Source: Burkholderia sp. USMB20 (lineage in GTDB: Bacteria; Pseudomonadota; Gammaproteobacteria; Burkholderiales; Burkholderiaceae). From it: a DNA stretch of 64,000 bases. Under the pieces are notes generated by a model. The model ran no database searches and was not told the origin of the DNA. It saw only the letters and a list, made by a program, of their open reading frames with translations. Shown here piece by piece: positions 16,050 to 34,230 of this stretch. The position numbers and the translations under genes are program-made. Location of the stretch: positions 310,001-374,000 of the forward strand of contig NZ_JTAN02000018.1 of assembly GCF_000949135.2 (NCBI RefSeq). Reading direction: 5' to 3'. Every line of letters starts with the position of its first letter. The first letter of the stretch is position 1.

Positions 16050-16721
16050 TCATTGCTCGACCGACGGGCTCGCCGGTGCGTCGGCTTCCGGCGGAAAGGC
16101 CTCGACATAGGCCGCGACCGCGCGCATGTCCTGTTCGGTCATGTTCGCGCACACGGACTTCATGATCGCGCCGCGTGGCCGCGTGTCGGTTTCCCGGAAA
16201 ACCCTCAGCTGCTTCATCACGTAGTCCGCGTGCTGGCCGGCGAGCCGGGGGAACCCGGTCATGCCCTCGCCATGCTGGCCATGACATCCGACACAGGCCG
16301 ATACACCCTTGTCCGGCAGTCCCGACACGAAGATCGCTTTGCCCATGTCGAGCAGCAAGCGATCGCCGACCTCGCCGAGCACCGCCGGCTGGCTCGAGAA
16401 ATAATCGGCGAGCTGCTCGATCTGCGCATCGGTCAGATGCGTGAAGCCCCACATGTAGCGCTTCGCATTCGGATCGGCGCGCGCGTGATGCTTGAAGTCG
16501 GTCAACTGGTCGACGAGGTATTCCTTGCGTTGCCCGGCGAGCTTCGGAAACATCGGCGATACCGACACGCCGGTCGCGCCATGGCAGTTCGAGCACACCT
16601 GCAACGCAATGGTCTTGCCCGACACGGCCGGATTGTCGACTTCCCGCGACCGCTCCAGGTCGTGACAACCCGATGCCGCCAGCACCAGCGCAAGCCAAGC
16701 GAAATGGGTCACCTTGTTCAT
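16050..16721 (-). CDS. dihaem cytochrome c (c4-like), exported
   Basis: 223 residues with an N-terminal hydrophobic leader (HFAWLALVLAASGC) whose cysteine could be a lipid anchor. Two cytochrome c domains follow, with haem sites CSNCH near residue 44 and CVGCH near 144. Met ligands are likely within MFPKLAGQ and GFPRLAGQ, the repeated motif of cytochrome c4. Cytochrome c4 proteins are periplasmic electron carriers to terminal oxidases. It is the last gene of the operon, 43 bp after the outer-membrane barrel, and is the natural link between the surface proteins and the respiratory chain. That role is inferred from position and family. Confidence 0.88.
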   Translation of the reverse strand: MNKVTHFAWLALVLAASGCHDLERSREVDNPAVSGKTIALQVCSNCHGATGVSVSPMFPKLAGQRKEYLVDQLTDFKHHARADPNAKRYMWGFTHLTDAQIEQLADYFSSQPAVLGEVGDRLLLDMGKAIFVSGLPDKGVSACVGCHGQHGEGMTGFPRLAGQHADYVMKQLRVFRETDTRPRGAIMKSVCANMTEQDMRAVAAYVEAFPPEADAPASPSVEQ

Positions 16722-16764
16722 GTCAGCGCTCTCCCTGCCGCAATGTCCGTCGCCCCGCCGGGTG

Positions 16765-18150
16765 TCAGAATGAAGCCAGCCATAGATAGATGAACAGCGT
16801 GTCGTTGTCCCTTGCATTGCGTCCGTTGCCGTCGTAGTTGGTCGTCGCGCCGAGGAACTTGGTGAAGTGCGTGTACTGGATACCGATTCGCACGTGCTGA
16901 TCAGGTATCCAGAATATTTCCGGCGTCCACCCCTGCGTATTCGGATGGAAGTTCGCGCTTGCCGCATAGGCGGCGCTGTCCGCGGTCCCCGTCGTATTGA
17001 AGAACGACAGGCTGACGCCGTACTTGGCCTGGTAGATGTACGACGCCTTGAGCCGCAACGAATTCAGGTTCGCCGCCGTGTTGTCGCTCACGACGAAGTT
17101 GTTGGGATCGTGAATGTTCTCGCGCACGTAGCGCGCCTGCGCGGTAATCGTGTGCGGCTCCAGCAGGTACTGGTACTGCGTGTCGAAACCGTAGTCGCGA
17201 TAGCGCGTCACGCCCGTGCCGAAGATCGGGAAACTGTTCGGGTCGTTCGGATAGACGTTGACGCTCAGCCCGAACGCGCCGACCATCAGGCTGTGCGGCC
17301 CCCATTCGCGCGTCAGCGCGATGCGCGCATACGGGTTGTAGCCGCGCAGATAGACCTGCGGGTGGTCCGGGTTGCCCGCGTGGTTGCCCTTGCTCAGGAA
17401 CGACCAGATGCCGTCGGCCGTGCTGTAGGCGGTCAGCTCCGCATAGACCGTCTTGTTCCAGTACAGGTACCCGCCCATGCCGACGACCTGCATCGCGAGA
17501 CCGCCCTCGATGATCGGCGTGACCGGAACGCCGGCCACCGGGCTGATCGCGGAGCCGATATACGGATAGCTCCAGGCCGGCGCGGTATTGAATACATCCT
17601 GCACGGTCGGGTTGTTGTGCAGCGTCAGGCCGAGGATCAGATCGTTGGCCGGAGACATGATCCGGTCGACGAAGCGAAAGTCGGTGTTGTCCGATGCCCA
17701 CCAGCCTTTCCATTTTCCGTTGGCATCCTGATGATCGTAGTTCGCATAGGTGAACTGTGCGAAGCCGCCGAGATGGTCGGTGATCTTCCCGGCGAGGAAC
17801 ACGCTCGCGAAGTCGAAGATCGGCAGGCCGTTCTTCGGCGTGACCGGATTGCCGCTGGCGTCGCTGTTGGCTCGCGTCTTGCTCATGTCGGCGACGGCCA
17901 TCGCCGCGAGCGGAATCGTGCGCTCGCCCAACGTATAACCGTTCAGCTTGAACATGCGCCCGTACGGCGTCAGTTCGGGAAACTGGCCGCCGGCGTGACA
18001 TGCGACGCAACTTTGCCCGGTCTGGCGCGCGAAGATCGGCAGCGCCTGCCCGACGGACGCCTGCAGCAGCGCGAGCGCCGCGATCACGACCATCCCGCCG
18101 CGATGCGCCCAGCGATGACGCGTGTCATGCCCGACAAGAAACGTTGTCAT
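16765..18150 (-). CDS. outer-membrane beta-barrel with N-terminal haem c site
   Basis: 461 residues: a signal segment (VVIAALALLQASVGQALP), a single haem motif CVACH near residue 49 in a short cytochrome-like head (QTGQSCVACHAGGQFPELTP), and then about 400 residues of alternating aromatic-rich strands. It ends in LFIYLWLASF, the terminal aromatic typical of outer-membrane barrels. The start at 18150 has GAGGGAAACCGCC before it. Such haem-headed barrels could pass electrons through the outer membrane without a separate multihaem cytochrome. It is not a recognisable MtrB/PioB. It sits between the cytochrome-PBP fusion and the c4-like cytochrome. Confidence 0.8.
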   Translation of the reverse strand: MTTFLVGHDTRHRWAHRGGMVVIAALALLQASVGQALPIFARQTGQSCVACHAGGQFPELTPYGRMFKLNGYTLGERTIPLAAMAVADMSKTRANSDASGNPVTPKNGLPIFDFASVFLAGKITDHLGGFAQFTYANYDHQDANGKWKGWWASDNTDFRFVDRIMSPANDLILGLTLHNNPTVQDVFNTAPAWSYPYIGSAISPVAGVPVTPIIEGGLAMQVVGMGGYLYWNKTVYAELTAYSTADGIWSFLSKGNHAGNPDHPQVYLRGYNPYARIALTREWGPHSLMVGAFGLSVNVYPNDPNSFPIFGTGVTRYRDYGFDTQYQYLLEPHTITAQARYVRENIHDPNNFVVSDNTAANLNSLRLKASYIYQAKYGVSLSFFNTTGTADSAAYAASANFHPNTQGWTPEIFWIPDQHVRIGIQYTHFTKFLGATTNYDGNGRNARDNDTLFIYLWLASF

Positions 18151-18299
18151 GGCGGTTTCCCTCCTCACGCCGTGTGGCCCGCGCTGCGCCGGAACGTCGC
18201 GCGATGCCTTCATTGTGCGAAGCGCCCGCGAGACCCGGCATGGGGAGACTTCCTCCATTCGCGGTCTGATTCCTACTCCATCTCGACGCGCGCGGCCGC

Positions 18300-20027
18300 T
18301 CAGGGAACGATCCAGCCTCCGTCGGCGGCAAGCTTCGCGCGATCCGGCCCGGCGAACCGCACGATATAACCGCCCTTCGACGCGAAGCGCTGCCCGGGCG
18401 CGAGCGTCAGGCGCGGGTAGTAGCCGGTCAGGATGCGACGTTCGAGCATGTCCTCGATGCGCTCGACGAGATACTCGCCCACGAACGCATCGACCATGTG
18501 ACTCAGCGTTTCGGCGAGCAGGCCGCATGCGAGATACGTGTCGGCCTGCACCTGCGGCGCGACCATCGGGATGTGCCGGATCGTGAACCAGCCGAATGCG
18601 TAGTCGACGCGCACGCGCCGCCCCTCGGGCAGGTCGAACGGATAGGCGACGCGCGTCACGCCGCGCCAGCGCGTCGGCAGCGGCGTGCTGTCGAGCCCGC
18701 CGAGCAGCCCCGACATGAACACCGTGTCCGACGCGGGCGGCACATGCTCGAGCGCCGCGAGGTCGGGCGGCCGCAGCCACAGCACGAGCGCATCGTCGCG
18801 CGGCATCCCGTGCAACGCATGTGCGACATCCTCGTGAGGCGCAAGCGCGCGATTCGACACCGCGATGCCGTGCGCCTTCAGCGCGGCGGCCAGCGCCTGG
18901 GCGCCCCGCTCGCCGTTGTCGCCCGCGCGATAGACCTGCCTGACCGTCTTCACCGGCCGCGCCGCGGCTTCATCCAGGATGCGCTTCGCGATCAGGTCCG
19001 ACTCGAGCAGCACGCCGCGCGAGAAGTACACGGAGTAGAAATCGTGATCGGTCTCGACCGGCACCTCGACGTTCGGAAACAGGCACGGCACGGCCTGCTG
19101 TTCGCAGAAGTCGTGAACGGGCGCCCAGTTCCTGCCGCCGAGCCCCGACACGACGGCCAGCACCGGCTGTCGCGCGAAATACTGCCTGAGCTGCTCATGC
19201 CACGTGTCGGGCGGCCCGGTGAGCGACCACACATGAAGCTCCCAGCGCCGATTGACCATGAACATCATTTTTCGCGTCGAGCGCAGCGGCGGCGTCGCGC
19301 CGAACGGAAACGCGTTCTTGTCCGCGAAGTAGTGCTGCAGGACGTCGAGCATGCCCGCCCGCTTCACCGGGTCCGCATCGGGCGTGACGATCGTCGCGAA
19401 ATGCAGCATCGTGTCGGTCACGCCCGGCAGCCTGCGCCGGTCGAGGCGTTTCAGATAGCGGCTCAACGCTGCCATGTCGGCATCGTCGAGCGCGTACTGC
19501 GGCATCAGCCTGCCGAGCGGCCGGCCTTCCGAATCGAGCCCTTCGCGCACGGCCCGCGCGAGCCGGTCTTCCGTGTACGGTTCGCGATCGGTGCGCATGC
19601 CGGGCACGTACGGAATGTCGAGATCCTCGCCGGTTTGCGCGCGAGGATGCGCCAGGTAGCGCCACGTGATCGGCGGGATCGTATTGTTGCCTTCCTTCGA
19701 GCCGAGGCCGCTGCGCCGGTGGCAATTGATACAGGCGGCAGCGGCGCCGCGCAGACGCACGCCGTCCTGATGCACCGCTTCGAGCGGCGCGCCCGAACCG
19801 AGGATGCCGCGCCGGTAGATCGCCTCGCCCGCGTCCGCGTCCGCCGGCTCGGCCGATGCAGATGGTGCAGCGGCCGCGGTCGGCACGGCGGGCGCTGGCT
19901 CTTCGCCAATCGCCTGCCCTGCGCTCGCGCCCAGCGCGGCCAGCAGCATCCACCGCGCCAGCCGCCTGCGCGACGCAGGCCGGCACGCCCCCGCGAGGGC
20001 GCTCAGCCGCCCCCGGATGCCGTTCAT
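18300..20027 (-). CDS. cytochrome c fused to a type-1 periplasmic-binding-protein fold
   Basis: 575 residues. After a leader (WMLLAALGASAGQAIG) and an Ala/Pro-rich linker comes a cytochrome c domain with haem site CINCHRRSGLG near residue 100 and a probable Met ligand in RLMPQYALDDADM. From about residue 230 the chain resembles a LivJ-type binding protein (YFARQPVLAVVSGLGGRNW; the following Cys-containing CEQQAVPCLFP; SDTVFMSGLLGG). The start at 20027 overlaps the previous stop as ATGA, so translation is coupled. The fusion could sense or bind a small ligand and exchange electrons. I know of no characterised homologue. Confidence 0.8.
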   Translation of the reverse strand: MNGIRGRLSALAGACRPASRRRLARWMLLAALGASAGQAIGEEPAPAVPTAAAAPSASAEPADADAGEAIYRRGILGSGAPLEAVHQDGVRLRGAAAACINCHRRSGLGSKEGNNTIPPITWRYLAHPRAQTGEDLDIPYVPGMRTDREPYTEDRLARAVREGLDSEGRPLGRLMPQYALDDADMAALSRYLKRLDRRRLPGVTDTMLHFATIVTPDADPVKRAGMLDVLQHYFADKNAFPFGATPPLRSTRKMMFMVNRRWELHVWSLTGPPDTWHEQLRQYFARQPVLAVVSGLGGRNWAPVHDFCEQQAVPCLFPNVEVPVETDHDFYSVYFSRGVLLESDLIAKRILDEAAARPVKTVRQVYRAGDNGERGAQALAAALKAHGIAVSNRALAPHEDVAHALHGMPRDDALVLWLRPPDLAALEHVPPASDTVFMSGLLGGLDSTPLPTRWRGVTRVAYPFDLPEGRRVRVDYAFGWFTIRHIPMVAPQVQADTYLACGLLAETLSHMVDAFVGEYLVERIEDMLERRILTGYYPRLTLAPGQRFASKGGYIVRFAGPDRAKLAADGGWIVP

Positions 20028-20854
20028 GGCCGTACCGTCGGCCCGCCGACCCCGGGCAGTATCGGCCACGCGTTCGCATCGATCGCCACCGGACGGCGTC
20101 CGCCCGGCGACGCCGGCCGCGCGAAGATCGCGTCGTCGAGCGGCGGATTCAGCGACACCTTGTCGATGAACAGCGTGTCCTTGGTCGCTGCAGCGGCCGT
20201 GCCGCTCTCGATCTTCATCGGAATCTGCAGGCCGTCGACGCGCTTGAAGTTGCTGTAGTTCACTTCCACGGTGATCGGGCCGGCGGGCCCGCGCACCACG
20301 CGGTCGGCCTTCACGTCCAGGAACGTATGGCTGTCGATCCACACGTGGCGCATCGCGCCGGACGGCAGCTTCACCGCGAGGCGGTACGCGTCGTGACCGC
20401 CGAGCGATTCGACGCCGTCCAGCGCCACGCCGATGCCCTTCGCGTCATGGTCGACCAGCGGCCCGTCGATCACCTGCTCGTCGCGCGCGGACGTCAGCTC
20501 GCCCGGCGTATACGGCCGCAGGCTCGCCCCGCTGCTGGCGCCCTGCTTCCAGCCTTCGCGGCCGTCGAACACGCGCACGGCCTTCTGGTTCAGCACGGTG
20601 AGTTCGAAGCGCGTCTTGTTCGGCCGCTTCATCGCGAGGATGAACGGCATGTCGCGCACGGGCGCGTTCGGGCTGTCCACATGGCCCGACCAGACCATCG
20701 TCTGGATCTTGCGCCATGCATCGGGGCCGCCTCGCGCCGCGATGTTCTTCTCGACGACCTGGTCCGCGGTCAGGCCCTGTCCCGGCAATTGCCCGCACGC
20801 GCACAGGGCCGCCATCGCGCAGCCGGCGAGCACCCACGATCCGATTCGTCCCAT
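20024..20854 (-). CDS. LolA-like outer-membrane lipoprotein-sorting protein, lipoprotein (copy 2)
   Basis: 276 residues with a lipoprotein leader (VLAGCAMAALCACGQ). The rest is a LolA/LppX-type half-barrel: NIAARGGPDAWRKIQTMVW, MKRPNKTRFELTVLNQKAV, VFDGREGW, DAYRLAVKLPSGAMRHVWI and VNYSNFKRVDGLQIPMKI. Start 20854 is preferred because AGGTGA lies six bases before it; a GTG at 20863 is the alternative. It follows its paralogue directly. LolA-like folds carry lipid or lipoproteins through the periplasm. Two copies in one operon suggest a dedicated delivery path for one of the surface proteins encoded upstream, which is inference. Confidence 0.82.
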   Translation of the reverse strand: MGRIGSWVLAGCAMAALCACGQLPGQGLTADQVVEKNIAARGGPDAWRKIQTMVWSGHVDSPNAPVRDMPFILAMKRPNKTRFELTVLNQKAVRVFDGREGWKQGASSGASLRPYTPGELTSARDEQVIDGPLVDHDAKGIGVALDGVESLGGHDAYRLAVKLPSGAMRHVWIDSHTFLDVKADRVVRGPAGPITVEVNYSNFKRVDGLQIPMKIESGTAAAATKDTLFIDKVSLNPPLDDAIFARPASPGGRRPVAIDANAWPILPGVGGPTVRP

Positions 20855-20859
20855 GGCCG

Positions 20860-21699
20860 TCACCTCGTCGGGCTGTCCGTCGGGTGGCTCGCCACCCGGG
20901 CGACGGTGAGCGGCGGCTTGCCGAACAGCGCGTCGTCGGCCGTCTCGTTGAGCGCGACGTGCTCGATCGTGATCCGGTGCGTCTGCCTGACGCCGCTCAC
21001 GACGGTCTCGAGCGTGTGCGGCATGACGAGCCCGTTCTCCTTGCGGTAATCGCGATAGAGGATGGCGACGCTATGCGTCTTGCCGTCCAGTACACGCGGT
21101 TCGCCGTCGATCTTCAGTTCGAGGAAGCTCGACGCGTCGACCCACAGGCGCCGCGTCGCGCCGTCCTTCATCGTCAGCTTCAACACGTACGCGCGGTGCC
21201 CTTCCACCTGCTCGGTGCCAAGCGTCTCGATCGTGGTGCCCTTGTTCGCGTAGTCGATCAGCGGGCCGTCGAGCTCGGCGGACGACGCGGCCGACTTGAG
21301 CTGCGCCGGCGTATACGGCTCGACGTCGTTGCGGCCCAGGTACGGCCGCACGAGCCAGCCCTGCGAACCGTCGTACACCTGCAGCGCGGTCTGCTGCTCG
21401 AACTGGATCTCGAGCCGGCTCTTGCGCGGACGCTTCAGCGTCAGCGTGAACGGCAGCTTCACGTTCTTCTTGCCGCCCGCATCGAGCTGGCCGGTCATCC
21501 TGAGCGTCGACACCGCCCGCCACGCCTGCAACCCGCCGCGCGCCGCGGCATTGCGCGCGGCGATCTGCGCCGCGTCCATGTGCGCGGCCGATGCCGCCTG
21601 TGCATTCCCCGCCGCCGAGGCCGCGAAGGCGGCCTGACCGAAAGTCAGAAAGACGGCGGCGCACGCCGCCGAAATCGACTTGAAAAGAAACCGGTTCAT
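20860..21699 (-). CDS. LolA-like outer-membrane lipoprotein-sorting protein, soluble (copy 1)
   Basis: 279 residues with a cleavable signal peptide (AACAAVFLTFGQAAFA) and no lipobox. It shares with the next gene the blocks NAAARGGLQAWRAVSTL, LKRPRKSRLEIQFEQQTAL, VYDGSQGW, HRAYVLKLTMKDG and YRDYRKENGLVMPHTLE, so the two arose by duplication. One is soluble in the periplasm and the other membrane-anchored, which parallels the LolA/LolB pair, where a soluble carrier hands lipoprotein to an anchored receptor. Direct evidence for that function is absent. It lies between the small periplasmic protein gene and copy 2. Confidence 0.82.
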   Translation of the reverse strand: MNRFLFKSISAACAAVFLTFGQAAFAASAAGNAQAASAAHMDAAQIAARNAAARGGLQAWRAVSTLRMTGQLDAGGKKNVKLPFTLTLKRPRKSRLEIQFEQQTALQVYDGSQGWLVRPYLGRNDVEPYTPAQLKSAASSAELDGPLIDYANKGTTIETLGTEQVEGHRAYVLKLTMKDGATRRLWVDASSFLELKIDGEPRVLDGKTHSVAILYRDYRKENGLVMPHTLETVVSGVRQTHRITIEHVALNETADDALFGKPPLTVARVASHPTDSPTR

Positions 21700-21760: not shown

Positions 21761-22264
21761 TTACTCGACCACCAGCCCGTCGATATGCAGCGAATCGATC
21801 AGGACGCTGACCCGTTCGCCGCGCTTGATCGGCCCTCCCTTGTTGGAAAACACCATCCAGTACTCCTGACCGGCTATCAGCTGGCCGGTCTGCCGCAGCG
21901 CGCCGATCTGGTCCATGACCGGAATCACGAGCATCGCGTGGCTCGTTTCTCCGTACAGGTAGACGGTCGACTTCGTGTCGGCGAGCAGGCGCGCCTTGTC
22001 CGGATCGACCACGCGGTAGCTGAAGCGGATCAGGTTGCCCGACGCGGTGCTGCGCACGTGCAGGTCGTCGATGCCCTTCCCCATCTGGTAATAGGCCTTC
22101 GCCTCGCGCGGCAGGCTCACCGGCACGTACGGCGAGCGCCGGTGCGCGGCCTCGGCCGGCGCGTCCTGCCCGGCCGCGGCCGGCCGAGGCAGGACCACCA
22201 CGGCAACGCACGCGCCGCCCGCGAGCAGCAGCGCCGCTGCCGTGCGCCACGCGGCCCGTTTCAC
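21761..22264 (-). CDS. uncharacterised periplasmic or membrane-anchored protein (167 aa)
   Basis: 167 residues with an N-terminal hydrophobic anchor or signal (TAAALLLAGGACVAVVVLP) and a compact domain containing FSYRVVDPDKARLLADT, TVYLYGETSHAMLVIPVMD and EYWMVFSNKGGPIKRG. I do not recognise the family. It starts with GTG at 22264, overlapping the TGA of the giant gene as GTGA. This implies translational coupling and fixes where the giant gene must end. Position between the giant surface protein and the LolA pair suggests an assembly or stabilising role. Confidence 0.75.
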   Translation of the reverse strand: MKRAAWRTAAALLLAGGACVAVVVLPRPAAAGQDAPAEAAHRRSPYVPVSLPREAKAYYQMGKGIDDLHVRSTASGNLIRFSYRVVDPDKARLLADTKSTVYLYGETSHAMLVIPVMDQIGALRQTGQLIAGQEYWMVFSNKGGPIKRGERVSVLIDSLHIDGLVVE

Positions 22265-25200
22265 CGCAGCGCCCGGTGAGCGTGGCGGGGTGCCGCCTGC
22301 GCCGGAATCGGCGCCGGCGGGCGCGGTGCGGTACCCGGTTGGGTACGGGTCTGCGTCTGCGTGCGATTGCGCGGCGGCGTCTGGGTCGGGCCTGCAGCAG
22401 CACGTTCGACGGCGGCCGCGCGAGCGCCGGAGACTGCGTCAGCGCACCGGCCGGCCGCGGCCGCGCCGCCGGTGCGAGCCGCGGCGCGCCTGCCAGCGGC
22501 CGCCGCAACGCCGGCGCCTGGATCTGCGTCAGCGGCTGGAGGCCGTTGAGCAGGCCCTGGATCCCACCGGCGCCCGGCAGCCCGGCGAGCAAACCCGCCA
22601 CGCCGGCCGGCTGGTTCCCGCCCAACGCCAGCGGATCGGTCGGCCCGCCGCCGAGCAGGCCGCCCAGCAGGCCCGGCGTCACGTACTCGACCGCGCCGAT
22701 GTCGTAGCCGTTGCCTTGCGGCCGCGGCGTGCCGAAGATGTCGTGATTCGGTGCGCCGCGCCCGGTGGCCGCCCCGATCGCCGGCGATGTGCCCTTGATC
22801 GAGTAGTTGCCCATCATCACGTTGTAACCCGCACTGCCCGGCGTGAGCGCCTCGTTGAACAGCGACAGCGGCCCATACGACATGTTGATCCACTGGTTGC
22901 CTTCATCGGGCGTGGCCGTCGGCATCAACCCGAACAGCGGATTCGGCAGCACCGCGTCGGCGATCCCGGGCGGCACGGCGAAGCCGTTCCCGCCGGCTTC
23001 CGGCGGTACCCGCGACCCGTTGCAGTACTGGCCCACCGTCTGCGGATCCGCCGCGATGTTGGTCGTGGCGTAGCCCGCCGTGCTGGTCATGATCGAATGC
23101 TGCGGATTCATCGTCAGCCCGGATTGATGATTGGCAGGCCCGGTGTCGCCCCACGCGCCGATGTCCCAATAGAACGGCGGGGTCGTGCCGCCCGTCACGC
23201 AGAAGCCTGTCGACTTCCCCTGCTGGTTCAGGACCGGGTTCAACGTGACCGCGTTCTGCACGCCGGGGATGTTCGGGTTCGGCTGCGAACTCACCGAGAT
23301 GTAGAACGAGCGGTTTTGCCAGAACAGGTTGTTGGTCAGCACCGGGTTCGAGAACTTCGTGCAGTTCGGCTCATCCGCGGGACACCTGACGTTCCCCCTG
23401 AAATTCGCGGGCGGCACGAACGCTGCCAGCAGGTTCTGCGTATGGGATGTCGTCTCCAGCCCGGCCGGCTGCTGCGTCGAGGCCTCGATGAAGCTCGTGC
23501 ACGTCGAGTCCGCGCTGTTCGGGCTGCTCGTGCATCCCGGCGGCGGCACGTTCGACTGCGACGCGGCCGGCGTATTGAACAGCACGCCCGCCGACGCCGT
23601 CGCATCGTTCGCGATCACCGTGTTGTTGATGAAGTCCACGCGCACCGCATCCTGCAGCGACACGCCACCGCCCGACCAGCCGGCCACGTTGTCCGCGATG
23701 ATGTTGTTGATCACGCGCACCTTGTACCACTTGTTCGGGTTGCCGAGGTTGCGCTGCACGTCCGTGCCGTTGACGCTCTGCAGCCGCAGGCCACCGCCCT
23801 TGCCGCTCTCCGCGGTATTGCCCATGATCAGGTTGCCGTCGATCACCAGATCCGGGCCGATGCCGTCGGACAGCTGCGGCGCGCAGTCGACGTCGACGAG
23901 GCTGTTCTCGCAGAACGTGCCGTCGGGCGGCACGCCCTGCGCGATGATGCCACCGCCGTACGTCGGCAACGTCGGGTTGTTGCTCTGGTTGAACAGCACC
24001 ACGTTGTGCGACAGGTCGCCGTTGTAGCTGAACCCGAAGTGCGCGACGCCGCCGCCGTCACCGCTGCTGATGTTGCCGCATACCCAGTTGTAGTTGAACT
24101 TGTAGTAGTCGGCGCCCGAGCAGAGCGTCACGCCACCTGCCGACGACGGCGTGGTCGAGTTGATCTCGTCGCCGTACGACGCGTTCCCCGTCACCGCGTT
24201 GTGATGAACGTTGACGAACGTGTTGTACATGAACGGCAGCTGCGTCACGCCGTCCGCGGCGATGTTGCCGTCGGGCACTTCCACCTGGCCGACCGTGATG
24301 CCGCCCGACAGCGTGCCGGCATTGCCGGTCACCCGGTTGTTCGAGACCTCCGTGTAATGGTTCCAGCCGTGCAGGAAGATCCCGCCGCCCCCCTGCGAGC
24401 TGTTGGTGACCGTGATCCCGTCGATGCGCGACGGGTTGCACAGGAAGTTGCTGTAGTTCGGGTTGTTCGGATCCGTCGTGCAGTCGTGCCGCGTCAGCAG
24501 CGTGCAGACACCGTTCGCGGTGCAGTTTGCGCTCGGCTTCACGCCCTTGCCCAGCACCGTGATGCCCGCGCCTTCATACGCGCCCAGCAGCGACGGCTCC
24601 ATCAGCAGCTCGCCCAGGTTGCCGTTCAGCGTACCGTCCCAGCCGACCGTCGGCTCGAACGGAATCGGATCCGCGTGCCCCTGCATCTGCGTCGAGCACT
24701 GATAGCTGCCTGACGGATCGTACGGGTTGTTGGTCGGCGAGATCGGCTTCGTCGGGTCGTACGCGGCCGAAATCATCCCGCCGTCCAGCGACGTACCGAA
24801 CAGGCACGAGATCAGCCTGCGCCACGGATCGAGCTTGCCGGACGGATGCGTGTTCGCGTTGACCGTCACCGACCCGGCGCCGACGCCTTGCAGCCGCACC
24901 GGCTTCCACATCACCAGCATCTCGTTGTACGTGCCCGGGCCGACGACGATCATGTCGCCCGCGCTCGCATTGTCGATCGCGGTCTGCAGCGCGTTGCTCG
25001 CGCCGTTCTCGCCGCCGACGTAGGTCGGCGTCTTGCCGCCGACCGTCACCGTGATCGCGTCGATCGAGCGCTTGCCGTTTCCGGCCGTGACCACGAGCTC
25101 ACCGCACTGCGTCGCCGGCGCGCCCATCTGCTGGATCGTGCAGGTCGACGGCGCCGTCAGCCCCGGCAGCGTCGGAATGCTCAGGTCGGGCACGGTGACG

Positions 25201-28200
25201 ACGATCTGCGTGTCGCTCCACGACACGACCGGTGCCTTGACGCCCGCGATCGTGACCGTACCGGTGCCCTGCGTGCCGCCGAAGCCGTAGTGGCGCGTGA
25301 TGAACTTCTGGTTGAACGGCGCCGCGCTCTGGCTCGGCCCCGTGTACGCGTGGTTCGGCACCTGCTGGTCGCCCAGCGCCTTGATCGTCAGCGTCTTGCC
25401 GGGCGCACTGACCCACGGGCCCGCGCCCGCGCCGATCGCATCGCCGGTCACGCTCGAGATTGCCGGCGTCGCATCCGGATACGCGCAGTCGGGCTGGTTG
25501 TATCCGTCGGCGAACGCCTGCACCGGCACCACCGGCGTATCCATGTACTGCGTCTGTCCGGGCATGAACGGAATCTCGTAACAGAACTGGCTGTAGGCCG
25601 GGTTGTACAGCGGATCGGTCATCATCTTGCCCGGATGATTCGGATCGGGGATCGGGCCCGGGTCGTTCATGCACGTGACCATCATCGTCGGCGCATAACC
25701 GGTCGGGTTCGGCGGGTTCACTTCCCAGGTCGAGAAGGTCAGCCCGTTGTAGATGCCCCACTGGTCCGAATAAGTGCGCGAGGTTTCGTTGCCGGAGAAA
25801 TCCTTGAACGAGACCGGCACGTTCGGCACCGCGAACTTCTCGCCGAACTGCGGCGAATACGGGTCGAACTCCGACGAGAAGTCGTCGAGCATGAAGCCCG
25901 TGTAGTGCGCCGCAACGTGCGTCGAGCTGAAGATCCAGAACTTCGCCAGCACCGATTCCTCGTCGGTCAGCATCACCTCCTTGCGATCGCACAGATGCCG
26001 CGATGCACCCGCGAACGGCGCGACTTCCTTCGATCCCGGGAACAGGCTGATGTAGTCCGGCACGATGCGCAGTTCGCCGACGCACGGCCAGAACCGCTCG
26101 ACGCTGCCGGTGTCGCCTTCGCCGTGCGGCGTCGAACCGAGGTCGGTGGTCATGTTCTGTGCGTTGTTCCTGTTGTACGTCGAGTTCACCGCGGCCTGGT
26201 CGGGCAGGATGAAGATCGCGCCGATCCCGCCGAACTGCTGCGTCACCGGTGCGATGAAGTTGTCGCCGATCAGGATGTTCTTGTCCTCCTCCTTCACCAG
26301 TTCGTAGCCCGGCGGCACGATGATCTCGACCACGTACTTGCCGGCCGGCAGCATCGGCGTGCCGTCGACGGGGTTCTTGCCGACGCAGATCGTGCAGTTC
26401 GACGCGACCGGCTTGCCGCTCGCGTCCGTCGCCGTCACGCTCGGGAACTTGTACATCCCGTCATACGGCGCCGGCTGGATCTGGTTGAACACGTGCATGC
26501 CGTCGTAGCACTTGAACTGCGCGTTCGCCGGCAATTGCCGATGTAGCGGATCGAGCCAGTTGGTGCTGTTCTTCAGCGTGAAGTAGAACGGGTCGTTCGG
26601 ATCCTGGCCCGGGCAGTTCATGTTCGGCGTCACGCCGTCCGCGCGGAAGCCCTGCGCCCAGTCGTCCCAGCTCGCCGTCTTGGTCGTGTCCACCAGCGTC
26701 AGGTTGGTCGTGCCGTCCGTGGCCGTGCCCTCCTGATACAGGTTCACCGTGACGTTCGGCACGTTGGGCGTCCACTTCGTGTGGATCAGCAGCGTCGGAT
26801 CGTCGAACGGCCGCGTCGACGCATAGATCACCTCGCCGCGAATCCCGCCGTTCTCGCCCTTCGCGAACGGCGTCTTGCCGAACTCGATGAACGAGTTCTG
26901 CCCGGAGAAACCCTGCCATGCCTCCGAGTTCACCCACGGTGGATCGACCCGGCCCGTCGAGCCGCTGCCGGTCGACGTGCAATCCGCGTCCGCGCAGTAG
27001 CGCGCGCCCGGCACCCGCAGGTTCGGCGGCACGGGCAAGGTTTCGACCGTGTTCGCGAAATTCCCGGCGATCGTCGAGTTGCCGCTGCCGGGCACGCCGG
27101 TGCTGTCGACCGGACCGCCCGCGTCGTACACGACGTGCGTGCCGCTCGACTTGTAGCGCGTCTGGTCGTCGTCCACCACGTACCAGTTGAACAACGGGAA
27201 CACTTCGTTGAACGGCGCGTAGCCATTGCCGTCCGTGTTGTTGAAGCTCGAGAAGCTGCCGTCGCGGAACCGCAGGTTGGTCGACGCCAGCGCGATGCCG
27301 GGATCGTCCGGGTGCGAGATGCCGTCGCCGTGCAGGTCGATGAAGGTCCGCGTATAGAGGTTCGTCTGCCACTGCAGCACGGCGAGATCGCCGACGTCGA
27401 CCGTCGTGCTCCCGTTGGCCGCAGGCAGCTGGACGGCCTTCGCCAGCCCGTCGACGATCTGGTCGTTCCACTGATCGAAGACCGTGATGCGCGTCGTGCC
27501 GCTCGGCAACCCGCTGATCGTGAAGCGGCCCTGGCTGTCGCACTTCGTGAAGCCGTAATCCTCGCCGTCCGGATCGCCGACGCTCACGTAGCATTGCGAG
27601 AACGCCAGCGAATCGTGCGACCCGCTGCTGTACAGATTCTCGTTCGGCGGACGGCCGTAGTGCAGGTTCGTCACGCGGCCCGTGAGCGTGTTCGGGCACG
27701 CGCCGGTGTCGCACAGCCCCGTCTTGGCCGCGTTGGTGCGCCGCGCGTTGATCGTCTTCGGATTCGCGAAGCCGATCGACACGTGATAGCCGGCCGGCCC
27801 GAACTCCTGGAAGTACGCGGGCCCGCCGACCTTGATGAACGCGTCATGCGCCTTCTGGCCGTCGAGCGTGTTGGTCTGCAGCCATTCCTCGCCGCGACCG
27901 ATCCGGTCGGCCGCCGGCGTCGCGATCACGCCGTAGCGGCCCGGCATCAGGTTGGCGATGACCGCCTGGCCGACCAGCGGCGACAGCGTCTTGCCGTCCG
28001 ATTCGAATTTCGGGCAGGTCGGGATCATGCCGACCAGGCCGTCGGTCGCCGTCGTGATCGGGCACGCATTGAGTCCGGTGAGCGGGTCGATGGTGCCCTG
28101 CAGCGAATTCGACAGCGGCATGTTGAACATGTCGTAGGTCATCTGCCCGGTCGGGTCGCCGGTGCCGCCGGCGTCGTCCCAGAGCTTGATCTCGAAGCCG

Positions 28201-30914
28201 CCGAGGCCCGGCTCGCGCGCGGTGCCGAAACCGTCGGTCCCGCCGCTGACATCCACTTCGCCGTTCAGCGGCGCATCGTCCTCGAACACGAACACCGACA
28301 GCTTCGCAGTCTGGTACGGGGTTTCCGTCAGCAGCACGTTGAGCTGTCCGGCTTGGCCCACCGCGGTCTGCCCGGCCTTCGCGGCCGCGATCTGCGCAGG
28401 CGAAATCGGCGCACCGCCCATGCTGTGGCCGCACTTGCCGGTGCCCGGCGCGAAATCCGCGCCGCTCGGGCCCGACGGGCAGTCGAGCGCGATGCTGAAT
28501 TGCCGCGTGGTGTTGGCGGGCGGCACGCCGCCGCCATTCACGAACGTGTTGCCCGCGTCGCCCGGCAGGATCGAGATGTAGTAATGCTTGGTCGGATCGA
28601 GCGCCACGTATTTCGGATCGACCGGCGTCTGCTGCGAAACGTTGGTGCCGGTGCGGCACGCGCCGTTGCCGACGTCGCACACGGTCGGCAGGTGCGTGTT
28701 GGAGACCGGGTCGTACACGGTCTGCCCGGATTCGCACGCGACGGTGCCGACACAGCCGGCCGCCACCACCGGCATGTAGCTCGTATGGAAGTTCGTGCCG
28801 AGACTCGGCACCGGCAGCGGCGGGCAGTTCGCCGGCCGCGACGTCGCCGAGTTCACCTGGCAGGCCGGATCGATCTGCATCGTGCGGTCTTCCTCGATGA
28901 TCCAGCGATAGTCGGTGAGCTTGACCATCTTGTTCGGCGCGACCGCATCCGGCGCCATGCTCGGCGCATCCATCACGTTCACGACGAGCCCGCTGCCGGG
29001 ATTGAAGGTCACGGTCACGGTCCCCGCGTTCGCGCTGGTCTGGTTCTGCGTATTGGTGACCTTGTACTGGAACGACATCGTCTGCGCGGATGCGCCGGCC
29101 ATCGGCGGCGTCGTCGGCATCGCGGTAAACGAGCCGTCCGGGTTCAGCGTCACGGTGCCGTTCTTCGCGCTCGACGCGACGATCTGCGCGGTGAGCGGCA
29201 GCCCGGCCGGATCGCTCGCGCTGGCGAGCACGCCGGGCGCGCCGATCTGAACCTGCGACGCGATGTTGCTCGAGAAGCTCGCATTGCCCGCCGTGGGAAT
29301 CGACAGGCACTTGTTGCTCGTGGTGCAGGCGGTCAACGTCACCTTCGCCGTCACCGGCGGCGTGCCGTTCGTCGACTGATAGACGAAGCTGTCGTTCGTC
29401 GCGCTGCTCGACAGGTACGTGAAGGTACCGTCCGTGTTCAGCTTCAGCGTGCCGCTGGCAGGCGGCGTCTGGACCTTCACGCCGTAGACGCCGGAGTCGT
29501 TCGCGATCACGCCCTTGGCCGGATCCGACACGGCGAGTGTCGTGCCCGGCACGAAGTAGTAGTTCGCGCCCGTGGCGGTCGGCGTTTCGCCGATACCGGC
29601 GGTCGCGGACGGCTGCGCGTTGTTGACCGCAATGTAGGCCTGCATCCCGCCGTCGCGCAGATTGTTGGTCGACAGGCTCAGCTCGCGGTCGTACACGGGC
29701 ATCGCTCCGGCGGCCGGCGCGTTCACCATCACGTCGTAGGTCTTGCCTGCAGCCATGAACACCGAGTTCTGGATGCGCTGCGTGCCGGGCAGCACGTTGC
29801 CGTCCTCGGCGACCAGCGCGAACCCGGGTACCGACGGATTGCCGGTTTGCGCGCCGACCACGGCCGGAACGTGCATGCGCAGGCCGGCGTTCACCAGGCG
29901 CACCAGCACCTGCCCGGTCGACGGCGGCACGTTCACGCTCGGCCGGAACGCCGACGCGTTCGGGTTGGTGCGATCGAAGGCCACGCCGTTGATCAGGTAA
30001 TAGCGCGGATCGTAGTTCACCACCGGCGGATAGCAGGTGCCGAACGTGATCGACTTCGAGTCGCCGCACCCGCCGGGCTGACCCGACCACGCGGCAGTTT
30101 CGCTGAAGCCCTTGGTCGCGACGGCCGCGGCGACCGCCGCGTTCTGCACCGGATCGATCTCGCTCATCACGAGCGGCACGTCGGCGTCATAGCAGGACGC
30201 CGAATTCGGATACGCCAGCTTCGTCGATGCGCACGTCGAGCTGGCAACGGCCGGGCTCTTCACGACCAGCACGCCGTACAGGCCCATCGGCCCCTGGATC
30301 GACGGATGCGTGCCCGACTCCAGCAGATAGGTGCCGGGCTTCAGGTTCGGCCAGGTGAGCGTGGTGTGCGATTTCGGATCGGTCGACGCCGGCACCTCGG
30401 TCCCGAACGACTCGACGCGCGGTCCTTGCGCGGGCGGCACGAACGACGCCATCGGCGCGGTCGAAGTCGCGGTGACGATCGGCCAGGTCGTGGCGGTCTG
30501 CGTCGGATGGACCGGACTTGGCATGGTCGTCGGCTTGTCGCCGAGACCGCCGCCCAACTGCCCGACGATTACGAGCGAGGTCGGCACGGGCGCCGGCAGG
30601 TTGTTCGTCAGGTTGATCTGCAGTTGCCCCGCCGGCACGGTGATCACCACCGGCGACCAGTTCGCGCCGGCGGTCGTGTTCGCGGCCGCGCAGGTGGCAT
30701 TCACGGCTGGCGCCGCCGCGACGCCGGCCGGCGTGCAGCTGTAGCCCCACATCGGCACGGACTGTCCGTCCGGCATCAACGCCGTGGACGCCTTCGCCGT
30801 GAGATTGACGACCGCTTGCGCGAAACATGCCTCGCCTGCCGTCAGCAAGATGGATGCCGCGACCCCCGCCTTGAACAGATCAAGGAACGTCGCCGTGAGC
30901 TTGGTGGATCTCAT
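22261..30914 (-). CDS. giant secreted protein: MCO-like head, Ig/SdrD modules, parallel beta-helix (frameshift near C-terminus)
   Basis: About 2,884 residues with signal peptide. Residues 1-460 share the opening of the next-upstream oxidase (NLTA, PDG, WGYSC; GTYLLESGTHPSIQGPMGLYG) but lack HxHG and HCH copper motifs. Residues 470-640 are two Ig/VCBS-like repeats (TDGTFTY, NPDGSFTA). About 880-1600 hold SdrD/CNA-B-like modules (GLGGFEIKLWDDAGG, GRFTISGLPSGTTRI, RTFIDLHGDGISHPDD). An IPT-like domain lies near 1820-1920. About 1960-2740 form a right-handed parallel beta-helix (DNASAGDMIVVGPGTY, SGGITVG, GGGVAHFG). A Gly/Leu-rich and then Pro/Thr-rich tail ends the chain. The frame shifts by one base near 22390 in a C-run; without correction it would read on into the next gene. 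GGGGAGAAAGGCG precedes the start. Probably a cell-surface scaffold. Confidence 0.85.
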
Positions 30915-30931: not shown

Positions 30932-32581
30932 CTAATTGGATTCGTCGATCGGAAATACCGGAGGATCAACGAGCATCATCATCATCATTCCGCCGGGGAA
31001 GATGTTGTTCGTCGTGATCTCGCGCTCGTTATGCGAGTGCCACATGAACGCGAAGCCTGCTTCCGTCGCCGGCGGGTTCAAGATCGTGTTGCTCGGCGGC
31101 GAGGTGCCTGTCGGCGCCGTCGCACGCACGGTCGCGTCCGGCCCGAGATACGGACTGCCGCCATACCAGAAGCCGTTCGTCAGGATGTTCGAGTCCGGCA
31201 ACGTGACCGGCCCGCCGCTGCCGACCTTGCCGAACGGCGCCTTCTCGAGCGCCTTGCCGTGGTCCTGGCACCACTCGTAGTAATTCGGCGCGTCGCGGGG
31301 GGCCGGCGGATTCGACGCCGTCGTGTAGTAGCCGTTCGCGTCCGGCACGCAGACTGAGCCGTCGCCCGCGTAGTGCGCGTAGACGTCCCAGTTCAGGCCC
31401 TTGCCGGTCCAGTAGAAAATCCCGTCGATCGTGGCGCCGGGCGTCGTGGTGGTCGTGAACAGCAGCGGGCCGGCCGGCAGCCGCGGATTCGCCGGGTGGT
31501 TCGGGTCGGCCGGGCTCAGCAACAGGTTGCCGTCGCGCGCCAGCACGCGCACGTGATTGCCATGCTCGTGGAACGGATGCTGCCAGCGGCCGGTACCGAT
31601 GATCCGCAGCAGCACCAGTTCGCCCGGATGCATGTGCGGGTTGCCGTTATACGGCTGGTGCGGGTACTGCGGCGCGTAGTTCGGATCCATGTCGTCCGGC
31701 ATCGAGCGGCCGTTGACCATGAAATACGCCGGGTGATAAGGCTCGGTCTCGACGGTCATGCAGCCGGTCGGCTTGGTGCACGACGTATTCGCGGCGACCT
31801 GCTGCTCCGCCTGCTGATGGATGCGCGGATCCATTTCGGAGAACTGAAAAAGATACTCACGATCGTAGCAGGCGGCGCTGTTGTCGTATGCCGCCACAGC
31901 GTTGCGGAAATCGTGCTGGCCGAACGGCCTGCCCGAATCCGGCAGCGCCATGCAGCCCGCCGTGTTGACCGCCGTATTCGGCAGCACGATGATCGCGCCG
32001 TACAGCCCCATCTCGATCTGCAGGTCGCCCTGCGTGCCGCTGTAGTACGTATGCGTGCCCGGCGTCGCCGCGACGAACGAGTAGGTGACCGTCGCGCCGT
32101 GCTGCGCTTCCTGCGCCAGCAGCCCGGCAACGCCGGAGGTGCCGCTGCAGGTCTTGCCGTCCGGGCTCAAGGTGCCCGTGCACACGACGAAGCCGGGAAA
32201 CAGCATCGACGTGTTGCCGGCCGCCGCCGGCAGGTTGTTGGTGAGCGTCACGGTGATGATGTCGCCCTGCCTGACGATCAGCGTCGGACCGGGAATCTGC
32301 ATCGTCGGACAGGTCGCGCCGGTAATCGTCGACGGCGAGAAGACGAGCGGCGTCGCGCTGGTCGCTGCGCAGCCGTAGCCCCATGAATAAACGCTCGTGC
32401 CATCGGGCTGGGTGATGCGCGCCTCCTGGGCAGTGAGGTTGAATACCTTGCCGGTGATGCCCGGCGCCGCGGCTTGCGCGTGCATCGACAGCAACGCGGC
32501 GAGCGTCGCGACGCCGACGCGCGCGAGCCGTCCGAGACGGGCGAGCGTCGCGGTCCACGCATGATGAGTGATGTGTCCCAC
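30932..32581 (-). CDS. multicopper-oxidase-like protein with poly-Met C-terminus
   Basis: 549 residues with a signal peptide (ATLAALLSMHAQAAAP). Cupredoxin domain 1 includes LIVRQGDIITVTLTNNLP and GTHTYYSGTQGDLQIEMGLYG. Later copper motifs are HMHPGE and HPFHEHGNH near residue 337 and WHSHNERE near 514, followed by GGMMMMMLVDPP. The start is GTG at 32581 because AGGAG lies seven bases upstream; no good ATG exists. The WHSH motif replaces the usual HCH, so the type 1 copper Cys is missing in this chain. Together with the upstream oxidase it may supply a divided set of copper ligands. It is the second gene of the operon; 17 bp separate it from the giant gene. Confidence 0.85.
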   Translation of the reverse strand: MGHITHHAWTATLARLGRLARVGVATLAALLSMHAQAAAPGITGKVFNLTAQEARITQPDGTSVYSWGYGCAATSATPLVFSPSTITGATCPTMQIPGPTLIVRQGDIITVTLTNNLPAAAGNTSMLFPGFVVCTGTLSPDGKTCSGTSGVAGLLAQEAQHGATVTYSFVAATPGTHTYYSGTQGDLQIEMGLYGAIIVLPNTAVNTAGCMALPDSGRPFGQHDFRNAVAAYDNSAACYDREYLFQFSEMDPRIHQQAEQQVAANTSCTKPTGCMTVETEPYHPAYFMVNGRSMPDDMDPNYAPQYPHQPYNGNPHMHPGELVLLRIIGTGRWQHPFHEHGNHVRVLARDGNLLLSPADPNHPANPRLPAGPLLFTTTTTPGATIDGIFYWTGKGLNWDVYAHYAGDGSVCVPDANGYYTTASNPPAPRDAPNYYEWCQDHGKALEKAPFGKVGSGGPVTLPDSNILTNGFWYGGSPYLGPDATVRATAPTGTSPPSNTILNPPATEAGFAFMWHSHNEREITTNNIFPGGMMMMMLVDPPVFPIDESN

Positions 32582-32646
32582 GGCTTTTCTCCTAGGGCAG
32601 GACTTCCCGGCCGGGCCCGCCCGATGACACGGGCAGGCCCCGGTCT

Positions 32647-34230
32647 TCAAAGAGTGCAATGCTTCGTGACCGGATCCACCGTGCGGCAGATGTGGACCTC
32701 GGTCATCAGGCCGCCGAAGTTTTCCTGATCGTTCGACAGGTGATCGAGGTTCGGCGTGTACAGATAGAAAATCTGGCCCGAGTGGTATTTCGTCTTGTCG
32801 CTGGCGTCGAGAATCAGGTCGAGCGACTCGCCGCCGCCGAGCGTGATCGAGTTCGTGTCGTAGGCCAGGTTGTTGCCGGCCATGTCGCGCAGCAGGCGGG
32901 CATTGATCGCGACCACGTGCATCGGGATGCCGAGCGATGCCAGCGTCTGGTATTCGGTGACATCGAGATCCGAGATCCGCAACAGCGCCCGGCCGCCGGC
33001 CGGAATGTTGATCAGCGTCGACAGCGGTTGCGACGGATGCATCGTGCTGTCCGACGCGGGTGTCGACATCGCCCCTTCGGTCACCGTGTCCGGATAGCTG
33101 CGGCCGTTCAGCAGGAAGAACTTGTCCTTCATGTCGGTGAACGGCTCCGGATTGAACGTCATGCCGACGAAGTGGAAGTTCGGATCGAAGCCGTGGATCT
33201 GGATCGGATACTCGACGTCGTACGCGGTCGAGCCGTCGCCGTCGTTGTACGCGTAGAGCGACAGCGTTTCCGGCGTGGTCGCCGGAATGTTGGCGTTGGC
33301 CGCGCGCACGAGGCCGTTGTTCTGCTTCGGCAGCGGCGTCGAGCACAGAATGTCGTTGCCGCAGCGCGTGCGCAGGTCCGACTGCTGCGTGACCAGCGCC
33401 TGGTACAGGGACAGGCCTTTCGGCACCCGGTCCTGGCGCGGCCGCACGTAGATCTGGCCGACCATGCCCATCTGCAAGTGCTCCGGCGGCGTGATGTGGC
33501 AGTGCCAGAAATAGGTGCCCGCATCCGGCGCGAGATAGTAGTACGTGAAGCTCGCGCCGATGTTGATCGCGACCGACGCGTCCGGTACGCCGTCATAGAA
33601 CGACGACGCGTTCGGATAACCGTGGAAGTGCACCGTGTGCCGCTCGAACAGGTCCGGGCGCATGATCATCCCGACGTTCGTGAGCGTGAGGAAGAACTCG
33701 TCGTCCTCGTCGATCGCCATCATCGGCGCCGGCTGGTTGCCGTTCATCACGCCGATGTCCATGATCGGCCGCGGATCGACGTGGCCGGTCAGTGCGCCGC
33801 CGGCATCCGGATCGGGCGCGAGGCCGACCGCGCCGTTGTAGGTCGGGTCCGTCCTGGGGTCGCCGACGGTGTTGAACACCGACGCGAGCTCCGTGCCGGG
33901 CAGCCCGGCCTTGATGTCCGCGAGCCCGGACAGCGGGCCGAACGCGAACAGGTAGGTCTGCACGCCATTGGCCATCGTGGCGTAGCCGTCCCCACCCGAA
34001 ATCTGCTGGCACTTGATCGCGCCGTTCACGGCGCCGGTCGACGTGGAATTCTGGCCGGTATAGGTCGGCTTCGTGTAGGCGGGTTCGCCGACCCCGGGCG
34101 CCAGCGCGGTCGGGTGGGACGGCGTGGTCGACGGGCACTGGACGCGAAACGACTGGGCAAACGATGGAATAGCGCACATCAGGAGCAACAGTGCCGCCAC
34201 ACTGCTGCAACACGCGCGGGTACTGAACAT
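32647..34230 (-). CDS. multicopper oxidase with HFHG and WHCH motifs, secreted
   Basis: 527 residues with a signal peptide (VAALLLLMCAIPSFAQ). Copper ligands appear as HTVHFHGYP near residue 200 and YFWHCHITPPEHLQMGM near 243. The second is a variant of the HCHxxxHxxxGM block that holds the type 1 and type 3 copper ligands, here with two extra residues. Unlike CotA or CueO, both blocks lie close together in the first half, and the C-terminal cupredoxin domain keeps few histidines (GIPMHVVAINA). The start at 34230 has TGGAGG just upstream. It is the first gene of the nine-gene operon. Secreted MCOs of large surface systems (MnxG, MofA, MoxA) oxidise Mn(II); the substrate here is unproven. Confidence 0.85.
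   Translation of the reverse strand: MFSTRACCSSVAALLLLMCAIPSFAQSFRVQCPSTTPSHPTALAPGVGEPAYTKPTYTGQNSTSTGAVNGAIKCQQISGGDGYATMANGVQTYLFAFGPLSGLADIKAGLPGTELASVFNTVGDPRTDPTYNGAVGLAPDPDAGGALTGHVDPRPIMDIGVMNGNQPAPMMAIDEDDEFFLTLTNVGMIMRPDLFERHTVHFHGYPNASSFYDGVPDASVAINIGASFTYYYLAPDAGTYFWHCHITPPEHLQMGMVGQIYVRPRQDRVPKGLSLYQALVTQQSDLRTRCGNDILCSTPLPKQNNGLVRAANANIPATTPETLSLYAYNDGDGSTAYDVEYPIQIHGFDPNFHFVGMTFNPEPFTDMKDKFFLLNGRSYPDTVTEGAMSTPASDSTMHPSQPLSTLINIPAGGRALLRISDLDVTEYQTLASLGIPMHVVAINARLLRDMAGNNLAYDTNSITLGGGESLDLILDASDKTKYHSGQIFYLYTPNLDHLSNDQENFGGLMTEVHICRTVDPVTKHCTL

Follow-up and report, generated by a model that had tools for sequence, protein, structure and literature searches.

A conserved gene cluster of Burkholderia that may encode a surface copper oxidase with one site drawn from separate gene products, joined to a Cyc2-type cytochrome-porin

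Three tandem multicopper oxidase (MCO) genes, together with a mofC-like gene and SCO1, have been described in Sideroxydans ES-1 (PMC5566968), where the tandem proteins were called non-homologous to suggested metal oxidoreductases. More recently, the ES-1 proteins Slit_1812-1818 were reported to reach higher abundance with magnetite than with Fe(II)-citrate (PMC12016527, published in 2025); the same paper lists comparable clusters from Paraburkholderia, Ralstonia, Anaeromyxobacter and Steroidobacteraceae, credits Slit_1817 and Slit_1818 with typical MCO motifs, and describes the third ES-1 protein as larger, with adhesin- or lyase-like domains and without MCO motifs. Here we analysed a locus of similar make-up in a 64,000-nucleotide stretch of Burkholderia sp. 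USMB20 (contig NZ_JTAN02000018.1, positions 310,001 to 374,000; hereafter the window, with a G+C content of 67%), in which nine open reading frames occupy positions 34230 to 16050 of the minus strand, one after another. Their products are two exported cupredoxin proteins (genes 1 and 2), a giant exported protein with a cupredoxin-like head (gene 3), a small exported protein (gene 4), two LolA-like proteins (genes 5 and 6), a MofC-like cytochrome (gene 7), a Cyc2-type cytochrome-porin (gene 8) and a dihaem cytochrome (gene 9). The locus is real and conserved, and its function is likely metal oxidation, judging from sequence. Our preferred reading, to which we assign a probability of roughly 0.55, is that it encodes a surface copper oxidase whose single site is contributed by separate gene products, plus a Cyc2-type iron-oxidising route.

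Equated by description, genes 1 to 4 and 7 fit the Slit_1812-1818 set, as both have three tandem cupredoxin proteins, of which the largest is ligand-free, and a mofC-like cytochrome. The window cluster differs from the ES-1 cluster as described in that each protein here holds the ligands of half a site, and in that Cyc2 and its dihaem partner are joined to the cluster; moreover, Slit_1812-1818 includes SCO1, whereas for the window cluster SCO1 occurs in relatives only. A locus of a Sideroxydans metagenome-assembled genome (MAG; L112) has genes 1 to 5, SCO1 and part of the secretion operon discussed below. The idea of two halves of one site is not stated in the passages of PMC12016527 on the cluster, and the phrase "type II secretion" has no occurrence in the text of that paper. 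A further likeness is to MofABC of Leptothrix and OmpB of Geobacter, which combine an extracellular MCO with the cytochrome and periplasmic-binding protein MofC and, in some cases, a copper chaperone (PMC5566968, which also lists Mehta 2006 for the secretion of OmpB by an atypical type II system). By the papers' description, however, MofA and OmpB are single-chain proteins, and no mofB-like gene was noticed here, no search having been aimed at it. The Mnx enzyme (MnxG) is a large copper oxidase that acts on a metal, Mn(II). Compared by description, the mnxG operon of P. putida, as given in a figure legend of PMC8218464, differs in gene content from the window cluster. In the open-licence PubMed Central literature, only PMC5566968 surfaced for type II secretion, multicopper oxidase and Cyc2 together. 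The core of the cluster is thus published but uncharacterised, and the Burkholderia version adds Cyc2 and the dihaem partner; within the same literature, both the division of the copper site between genes and the dedicated secretion operon appear to be new. The original prediction, which took the nine genes for an exported redox operon with no described counterpart, was too strong on this last point, as PMC5566968 and PMC12016527 both describe the ES-1 cluster.

The shared site is suggested by the way the copper ligands are distributed. Gene 1 (32647..34230, on the minus strand like all features below; exported cupredoxin protein A, 527 amino acids) and gene 2 (30932..32581; exported cupredoxin protein B, 549 amino acids, GTG start) both carry Cu-oxidase domains in Pfam/NCBIfam searches, and both of them, as well as the head of gene 3 (approximately residues 1-440, a third cupredoxin-like pair), resemble two cupredoxin domains. 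In profile comparison, gene 2 aligned with gene 1 (98.0%) and with the gene 3 head (99.4%), each time in register and over most of both domains, and the kinship of gene 1 with the gene 3 head is drawn from their common match to gene 2. Domain 1 of gene 1 has HTVHFHG and HCHITPPEHLQMGM, the latter of the form HCH-x5-H-x4-M, which amount to the type-1 copper set and four trinuclear histidines, and no ligand motif was found in its domain 2. In gene 2, domain 1 is without ligands and domain 2 has HPFHEH, within HPFHEHG, and HSH, a serine standing where the cysteine would be. All gene 1 motifs were present in 98 of 101 frames; contig or stretch ends interrupt the remaining three. HP[FL]H[ET]H[GA] and WHSHN were found in 99 of 100 gene 2 frames and also in the hundredth (L064), a copy with a stop near its start; six rows of each set are duplicate sequences. 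No HxHG and no HCH was present in the gene 3 head in any of 99 frames. Neither gene 1 nor gene 2 has the four copper motifs on one polypeptide that define a single-chain multicopper oxidase; pooled, the two provide the type-1 Cys, His and Met and eight trinuclear histidines in all complete homologues.

Because these ligands are complementary in every homologue of complete sequence, one composite active site is implied, and the simplest reading would place a single copper site at the interface of the gene 1 and gene 2 products. We also considered that genes 1 and 2 might be two independent oxidases, a candidate that we rejected, each of them lacking half of the ligand motifs in every complete homologue. 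The original prediction of two MCO-like proteins was right about the Cu-oxidase domains, which both proteins possess, but by their ligands the two look like halves of one oxidase. Among solved structures, the two-domain oxidases 3g5w and 2zwn come closest to genes 1 and 2 (E 5.6e-14 and 8.1e-13). The strong match of gene 1 is confined to the type-1-bearing domain 1 of these enzymes, with its ligands aligned on theirs, and gene 2 matches them strongly in domain 1 and weakly in domain 2; in the 2zwn alignment the HPFHEHG of gene 2 sits on HAMHSHG. Taken together, domain 1 of gene 1 and domain 2 of gene 2 reproduce the ligand motif order of 3g5w and 2zwn, with the difference that those are described as single-gene trimeric enzymes, whereas here the ligands are spread over two products and the third has none. 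The trinuclear sites of two-domain oxidases lie between adjacent subunits. Since two-domain multicopper oxidases form trimers (PMC13151041) and their trinuclear sites are intersubunit ones, the products of genes 1 to 3 would make up a trimer-derived heteromer. Genes 1 and 2 and the gene 3 head would all descend from a trimer-forming oxidase with two cupredoxin domains; the type-1 copper site and one half of the trinuclear cluster would come from gene 1, the other half from gene 2, and the gene 3 head would be an inactive third unit anchoring the enzyme to a large beta-helix or adhesin body.

The conservation of the locus is a matter of direct observation, as are the complementary ligands, the secretion operon next to the cluster in relatives and the lack of that operon in the window. 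Gene 2 was found in 17 of the 101 genomes around the nearest relative, namely 16 Burkholderia and one genome from a different family of the same taxonomic order (G095). The nine-gene order is identical in all 16 Burkholderia loci, beyond what chance would give. All 16 of these cluster-bearing Burkholderia, and they alone, have a gene 8 orthologue (82-94% identity); three other Burkholderia have a distant gene 8 copy only (46-47%). In a wider scan of one genome per species, from which the best 80 of 357 gene 2 relatives were kept, gene 1 lay upstream and the gene 3 head downstream of gene 2, each within 1.5 kb, in 80 of 80 loci, which according to their record titles come from Burkholderiaceae, Acidobacteria, Gammaproteobacteria, a Sideroxydans MAG and others. 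The co-occurrence across genomes that the original prediction expected was hence found, for the whole set in Burkholderia and for genes 1, 2 and the gene 3 head in the wider sample. Genes 7 and 8 were searched for in 40 loci, 38 of the 80 plus the C. metallidurans and P. largidicola replicons, 39 of which (all but L042) corresponded to 35 genomes or records. Gene 7 was present in 21 of these 35, and gene 8 gave a strong match in 16, a short weak one in four and none in 15; in nine of the 16 strong-match genomes Cyc2 was on the same contig within approximately 30 kb of gene 7, in several orientations. The possibility that gene 8 is a fixed partner of genes 1 to 7 was rejected on these counts, a strong match having been obtained in just 16 of 35.

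The sequence AxPxFAR[Q/K][T/Y] before CxxCH is described as a motif unique to Cyc2, with PxL following the haem (PMC8406198). Gene 8 (16765..18150), a fused cytochrome-porin (ALPIFARQTGQSCVACHAGGQFPEL), reads ALPIFARQTGQSCVACH at this place, in agreement with the motif, and in 15 aligned gene 8 homologues A36, P38, F40, R42, Q43 and T44, along with the haem Cys and His, are invariant, one homologue having FNR for FAR. In addition, gene 8 has a single CxxCH (CVACH), FPEL after the haem, and 461 amino acids, where at least 365 are required; its CVACH and PxL have five residues between them, where PMC8406198 gives PxL as four amino acids downstream. A structural model of gene 8 shows 16 strands of at least 9 residues and one of 3, with low confidence (mean predicted local distance difference test score, pLDDT, 55.5), so that the strand count alone was used; the best Foldseek matches of the model were OmpC/OmpF-type porins and AlgE, at a TM-score of about 0.4. 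Judged by the published motif, gene 8 is a Cyc2, in keeping with the original prediction of a haem-headed outer-membrane barrel. The motif, single haem and length match known Cyc2 proteins, from which gene 8 differs by its place in an operon-like unit with copper proteins. Gene 9 (16050..16721), a dihaem c-type probable lipoprotein with two cytochrome c domains in Pfam/NCBIfam, is its partner: gene 9 homologues (52% and 45%) lie directly behind gene 8 homologues on Ideonella and Caballeronia plasmids, with no copper genes in the stretches shown. On the plasmid of Caballeronia sp. SBC1 (L033:7942-10959), genes for a high-potential iron-sulfur protein (HiPIP), a Cyc2-type protein and a c-type cytochrome stand in a row with transposase genes nearby, and the Cyc2 pair looks there as if it were travelling as a small module. 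Plasmid pOLGA1 of Paraburkholderia phytofirmans OLGA172 (L031:6591-11088) has a Cyc2-type gene of 75% identity close to another c-type cytochrome gene, and no copper-protein cluster was seen beside it in the stretch shown.

Unlike the window, relatives continue beyond gene 9 with ccsB (CcsB above cut-off), regulators and SCO1, and then with a secretion operon. In P. largidicola, an operon with genes for GspG, GspF, GspE, further type II secretion proteins and response regulators adjoins the cluster, and tblastn with the P. largidicola proteins located this operon, complete or partial, next to the cluster in many carriers, either upstream or downstream: C. metallidurans, two C. basilensis, Pandoraea terrae, two Trinickia, P. 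aspalathi, P. dinghuensis, Burkholderia sp. OK233, a Comamonadaceae MAG, the Sideroxydans MAG, three other proteobacterial MAGs, G095 and six Burkholderia relatives. When 30 Burkholderia were compared, the operon GspE (83-85%) was present in 16 of 16 with the cluster and in 0 of 14 without it, the latter being a selection of the cluster-negative genomes and containing GspE paralogues only (33-52%); ten of the 16 carry it some 10 kb past gene 8 on one contig. Scored for a single Burkholderia relative (L136), T2SSG, T2SSF, T2SSE and Secretin all exceed the Pfam cut-off, and against NCBIfam GspG is above and GspD, GspE and GspF are below it, so that this is a divergent type II system. The nine genes are consequently not the complete set for which they had been taken; in the window the continuation is cut at 15588, and the secretion system and the copper chaperone could not be seen from the window because they are absent from it.

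Put together, these elements would give the following picture, in which we infer the formation of the complex, its export route, the loading of copper and haem, the substrate and the flow of electrons. In intact loci, copper would be loaded by SCO1 and haem attached by CcsB, and the neighbouring machine resembling type II secretion would carry the complex to the cell surface. The surface complex would oxidise a metal or mineral donor, most likely Fe(II), with Mn(II) as a possibility and O2 as the acceptor. Electrons from dissolved Fe(II) would pass to Cyc2 (gene 8) and from there, by way of the dihaem lipoprotein (gene 9), to the respiratory chain, and the MofC-like cytochrome (gene 7) may connect the copper oxidase and Cyc2 routes. 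That a former homotrimer of two-domain oxidases has become three different proteins, with one composite copper site at a single interface and with the third protein as the anchor of a giant beta-helix surface protein, exported by a dedicated type II secretion machine in many proteobacterial carriers and coupled through Cyc2 to metal or mineral oxidation in soil bacteria from more than one phylum, is a broader proposition to which we would give about even odds.

Several observations weigh against this picture. To our knowledge, Burkholderia are not established as lithotrophic iron oxidisers. At the level of the copper proteins, the gene 1 profile had no direct match to the gene 3 head (2.2%), and the gene 3 head has weak matches in the PDB, the best at E 0.15. 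The alignment of domain 2 of gene 2 is likewise weak (i-E 0.04 with 2zwn and 0.009 with 3g5w), and its HSH sits on the HDH of 2zwn in a stretch that scores -1.4 bits and is insignificant by itself. Concerning partners, the 15 acidobacterial genomes include one with gene 7, two with a strong Cyc2 match and 13 without, and none of the acidobacterial loci has at least two secretion genes in flanks of at most 10 kb; given this scarcity, gene 7, Cyc2 and the secretion genes are no universal partners of the cluster. Cyc2 is a recurrent, non-obligatory neighbour of the copper cluster, because a strong match is limited to those 16 of 35 genomes or records and because the one searched replicon each of C. 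metallidurans and P. largidicola carries genes 1 to 7 but no Cyc2. The linear path of the original prediction, from surface oxidase through barrel to carrier, is conjectural and has two points against it: 13 of the 15 acidobacterial genomes have the copper genes and no strong Cyc2 match, and Cyc2 is itself an iron oxidase in published tested cases and should be able to do without copper proteins. The function of Cyc2 is described as least certain in Cluster 3, and tests outside Cluster 1 as wanted (PMC8406198). Finally, as there is no secretion arm in the window and the tail frame of gene 3 is broken, the window copy may not work as described here.

This last point deserves closer consideration. 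Gene 3 (22261..30914) encodes a giant exported protein whose body, behind the cupredoxin-like head, gives bacterial Ig/cadherin, weak SdrD-like and beta-helix-type matches in Pfam/NCBIfam. Its main frame stays open to 21753 in the window, and its G+C-rich, proline-rich tail (22261..22420, at approximately 22.26-22.42 kb) is in a different frame from that of relatives, so that a giant of about 2,880 residues, as had been proposed, is not readable in one frame here. Intact copies do exist, as the frame in relatives has 2,698-2,975 amino acids, terminating at the gene 4 start or close to it. Variants of the giant were also encountered. In G095 (contig C59, L029/L030) it is split: a body of 1,678 amino acids that lacks the cupredoxin head precedes gene 1, and the head forms a gene of its own (a 654-codon frame) after gene 2, where a subtilisin-like protein carrying Ig repeats, SCO1 and the MofC-like gene come next. 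In a gammaproteobacterial MAG (L105:1-21545), a second giant body with genes 4, 5 and SCO1 lies upstream of the set of genes 1, 2 and 3, which makes it a partly doubled cluster.

At the other end, homology of the window ends exactly at 15588, inside ccsB, in all six relatives whose sequence extends past gene 9. What is left of ccsB is a 5' remnant (15588..15899), fused at 15588 with an amidohydrolase gene of which the 3' part is present (junction region 15119-15899), whereas CcsB is intact in relatives; the best matches of the amidohydrolase gene lie elsewhere in relatives, at places unrelated to ccsB. The upstream flank is syntenic with several relatives, and no secretion operon was found anywhere in the 64-kb window. 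By sequence comparison the junction would be either a rearrangement or a misassembly. The locus in this strain could then be a decaying remnant, its secretion arm deleted or moved and its giant tail broken, as suggested by the common stop of homology in the six relatives, by a truncated ccsB joined to a gene placed elsewhere and by the frame break in gene 3. We regard such decay, which would be compatible with any functional reading, as somewhat unlikely, since ratios of non-synonymous to synonymous substitution rates (dN/dS) are well below 1 for all nine genes (0.08-0.52 against two or three relatives per gene, and for gene 3 computed for residues 1-2745 only), which indicates purifying selection on each of them; the arm may also lie elsewhere in the genome, and a misassembly or sequencing error is possible.

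A different substrate has to be weighed as well. The copper proteins could form a laccase-like oxidase whose substrate is a phenolic compound, a humic one, a lignin derivative or a matrix polymer, with the Cyc2 pair as a neighbour that does a separate job. Many hosts, judged from organism names, are soil- or plant-associated heterotrophs, and a two-domain multicopper oxidase acts on lignin (PMC13151041); the copper genes are without a strong Cyc2 match in 19 of the 35 genomes or records, and gene 8 and gene 9 occur as a pair without copper genes in the plasmid stretches shown. However, the ES-1 proteins that fit this description are responsive to solid Fe(II) (PMC12016527), and Cyc2 adjoins the cluster in 16 of 16 Burkholderia in addition to lying within about 30 kb of gene 7 in nine of the 16 strong-match genomes, and for this reason we consider a laccase-like role improbable. 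That the cupredoxin heads are mainly structural or serve reductive extracellular electron transfer, a role proposed for OmpB of Geobacter, the beta-helix protein being a secreted adhesin, we find very unlikely in spite of the gene 3 head lacking ligand motifs and of OmpB being a surface multicopper protein required for Fe(III) oxide reduction and encoded near a distant mofC homologue (PMC5566968), because a purely structural role would need no conserved copper ligands and yet no complete homologue of gene 1 or gene 2, in any of the phyla, has lost its own, and because many hosts are, from general knowledge, aerobes.

As for the layout of the locus, the elementary features that had been predicted were confirmed: all nine open reading frames are present on the one strand, and they are tightly packed, with gaps from gene 1 to gene 9 of 65, 17, -4, 61, -4, -4, 149 and 43 bp, that is, seven of eight at no more than 65 bp and one of 149 bp. 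The two predicted 4-base overlaps, ATGA at 20024-20027 and GTGA at 22261-22264, exist, and a third is located at 20860-20863. Every product has a hydrophobic N-terminal leader, and those of genes 6 and 9 a lipobox-like Cys, both judged by eye. The gene 2 protein is 97% identical to the copy in B. catarinensis and 91% identical to that in B. ubonensis. Genes 4, 5, 6 and 8 matched no Pfam or NCBIfam family above the curated cut-off. Gene 4 (21761..22264), which overlaps the stop of gene 3, is conserved behind gene 3 in many loci and encodes a small exported protein with a mainly beta fold in its model (mean pLDDT 81.3), and a structure search with this model returned no PDB match at E <= 0.001. 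Gene 5 (20860..21699) encodes a LolA-like exported protein and gene 6 (20024..20863) a LolA-like probable lipoprotein; both matches are below the curated gathering cut-off, and the two are paralogues with 35% identity. Gene 7 (18300..20027) encodes a monohaem cytochrome c with one CxxCH and Cytochrom_C above cut-off (25.6 versus 21.3 bits), while the match to the periplasmic-binding domain Peripla_BP_6 is weak (14.5 bits against a cut-off of 31.7). The P. largidicola gene 7 is annotated as an ABC transporter substrate-binding protein, and the domain make-up would fit the description of MofC-like proteins in PMC5566968, with the Peripla_BP_6 match below cut-off. Upstream of gene 1, alignment of the window with seven relatives brought out an imperfect dyad, CCCCCTA-N8-TAGGAGG (34362..34383). 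Its exact form, CCCCCTA-N8-TAGGGGG, from which the window copy departs by one mismatch, is present in 16 of 145 loci, and a looser form in 20 of 96 gene 1 upstream regions, being kept in Burkholderia and some Paraburkholderia; this dyad may be where the LuxR-type regulators of the locus act.

If the locus does encode a surface copper oxidase with one site contributed by separate gene products, alongside a Cyc2-type route for iron, this would explain why such a widespread cluster keeps three cupredoxin genes together, and it would mean that scans which require all copper motifs in each chain could miss this enzyme. An export route for it would also be predicted, and the role of the cupredoxins induced by magnetite in ES-1 would become testable in a tractable strain, Cupriavidus metallidurans CH34, which has genes 1 to 7 and the secretion operon. 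More generally, the cluster is a candidate surface machine for metal or mineral oxidation in soil Burkholderia, Paraburkholderia, Cupriavidus and Acidobacteria, organisms that are not usually counted among the iron oxidisers.

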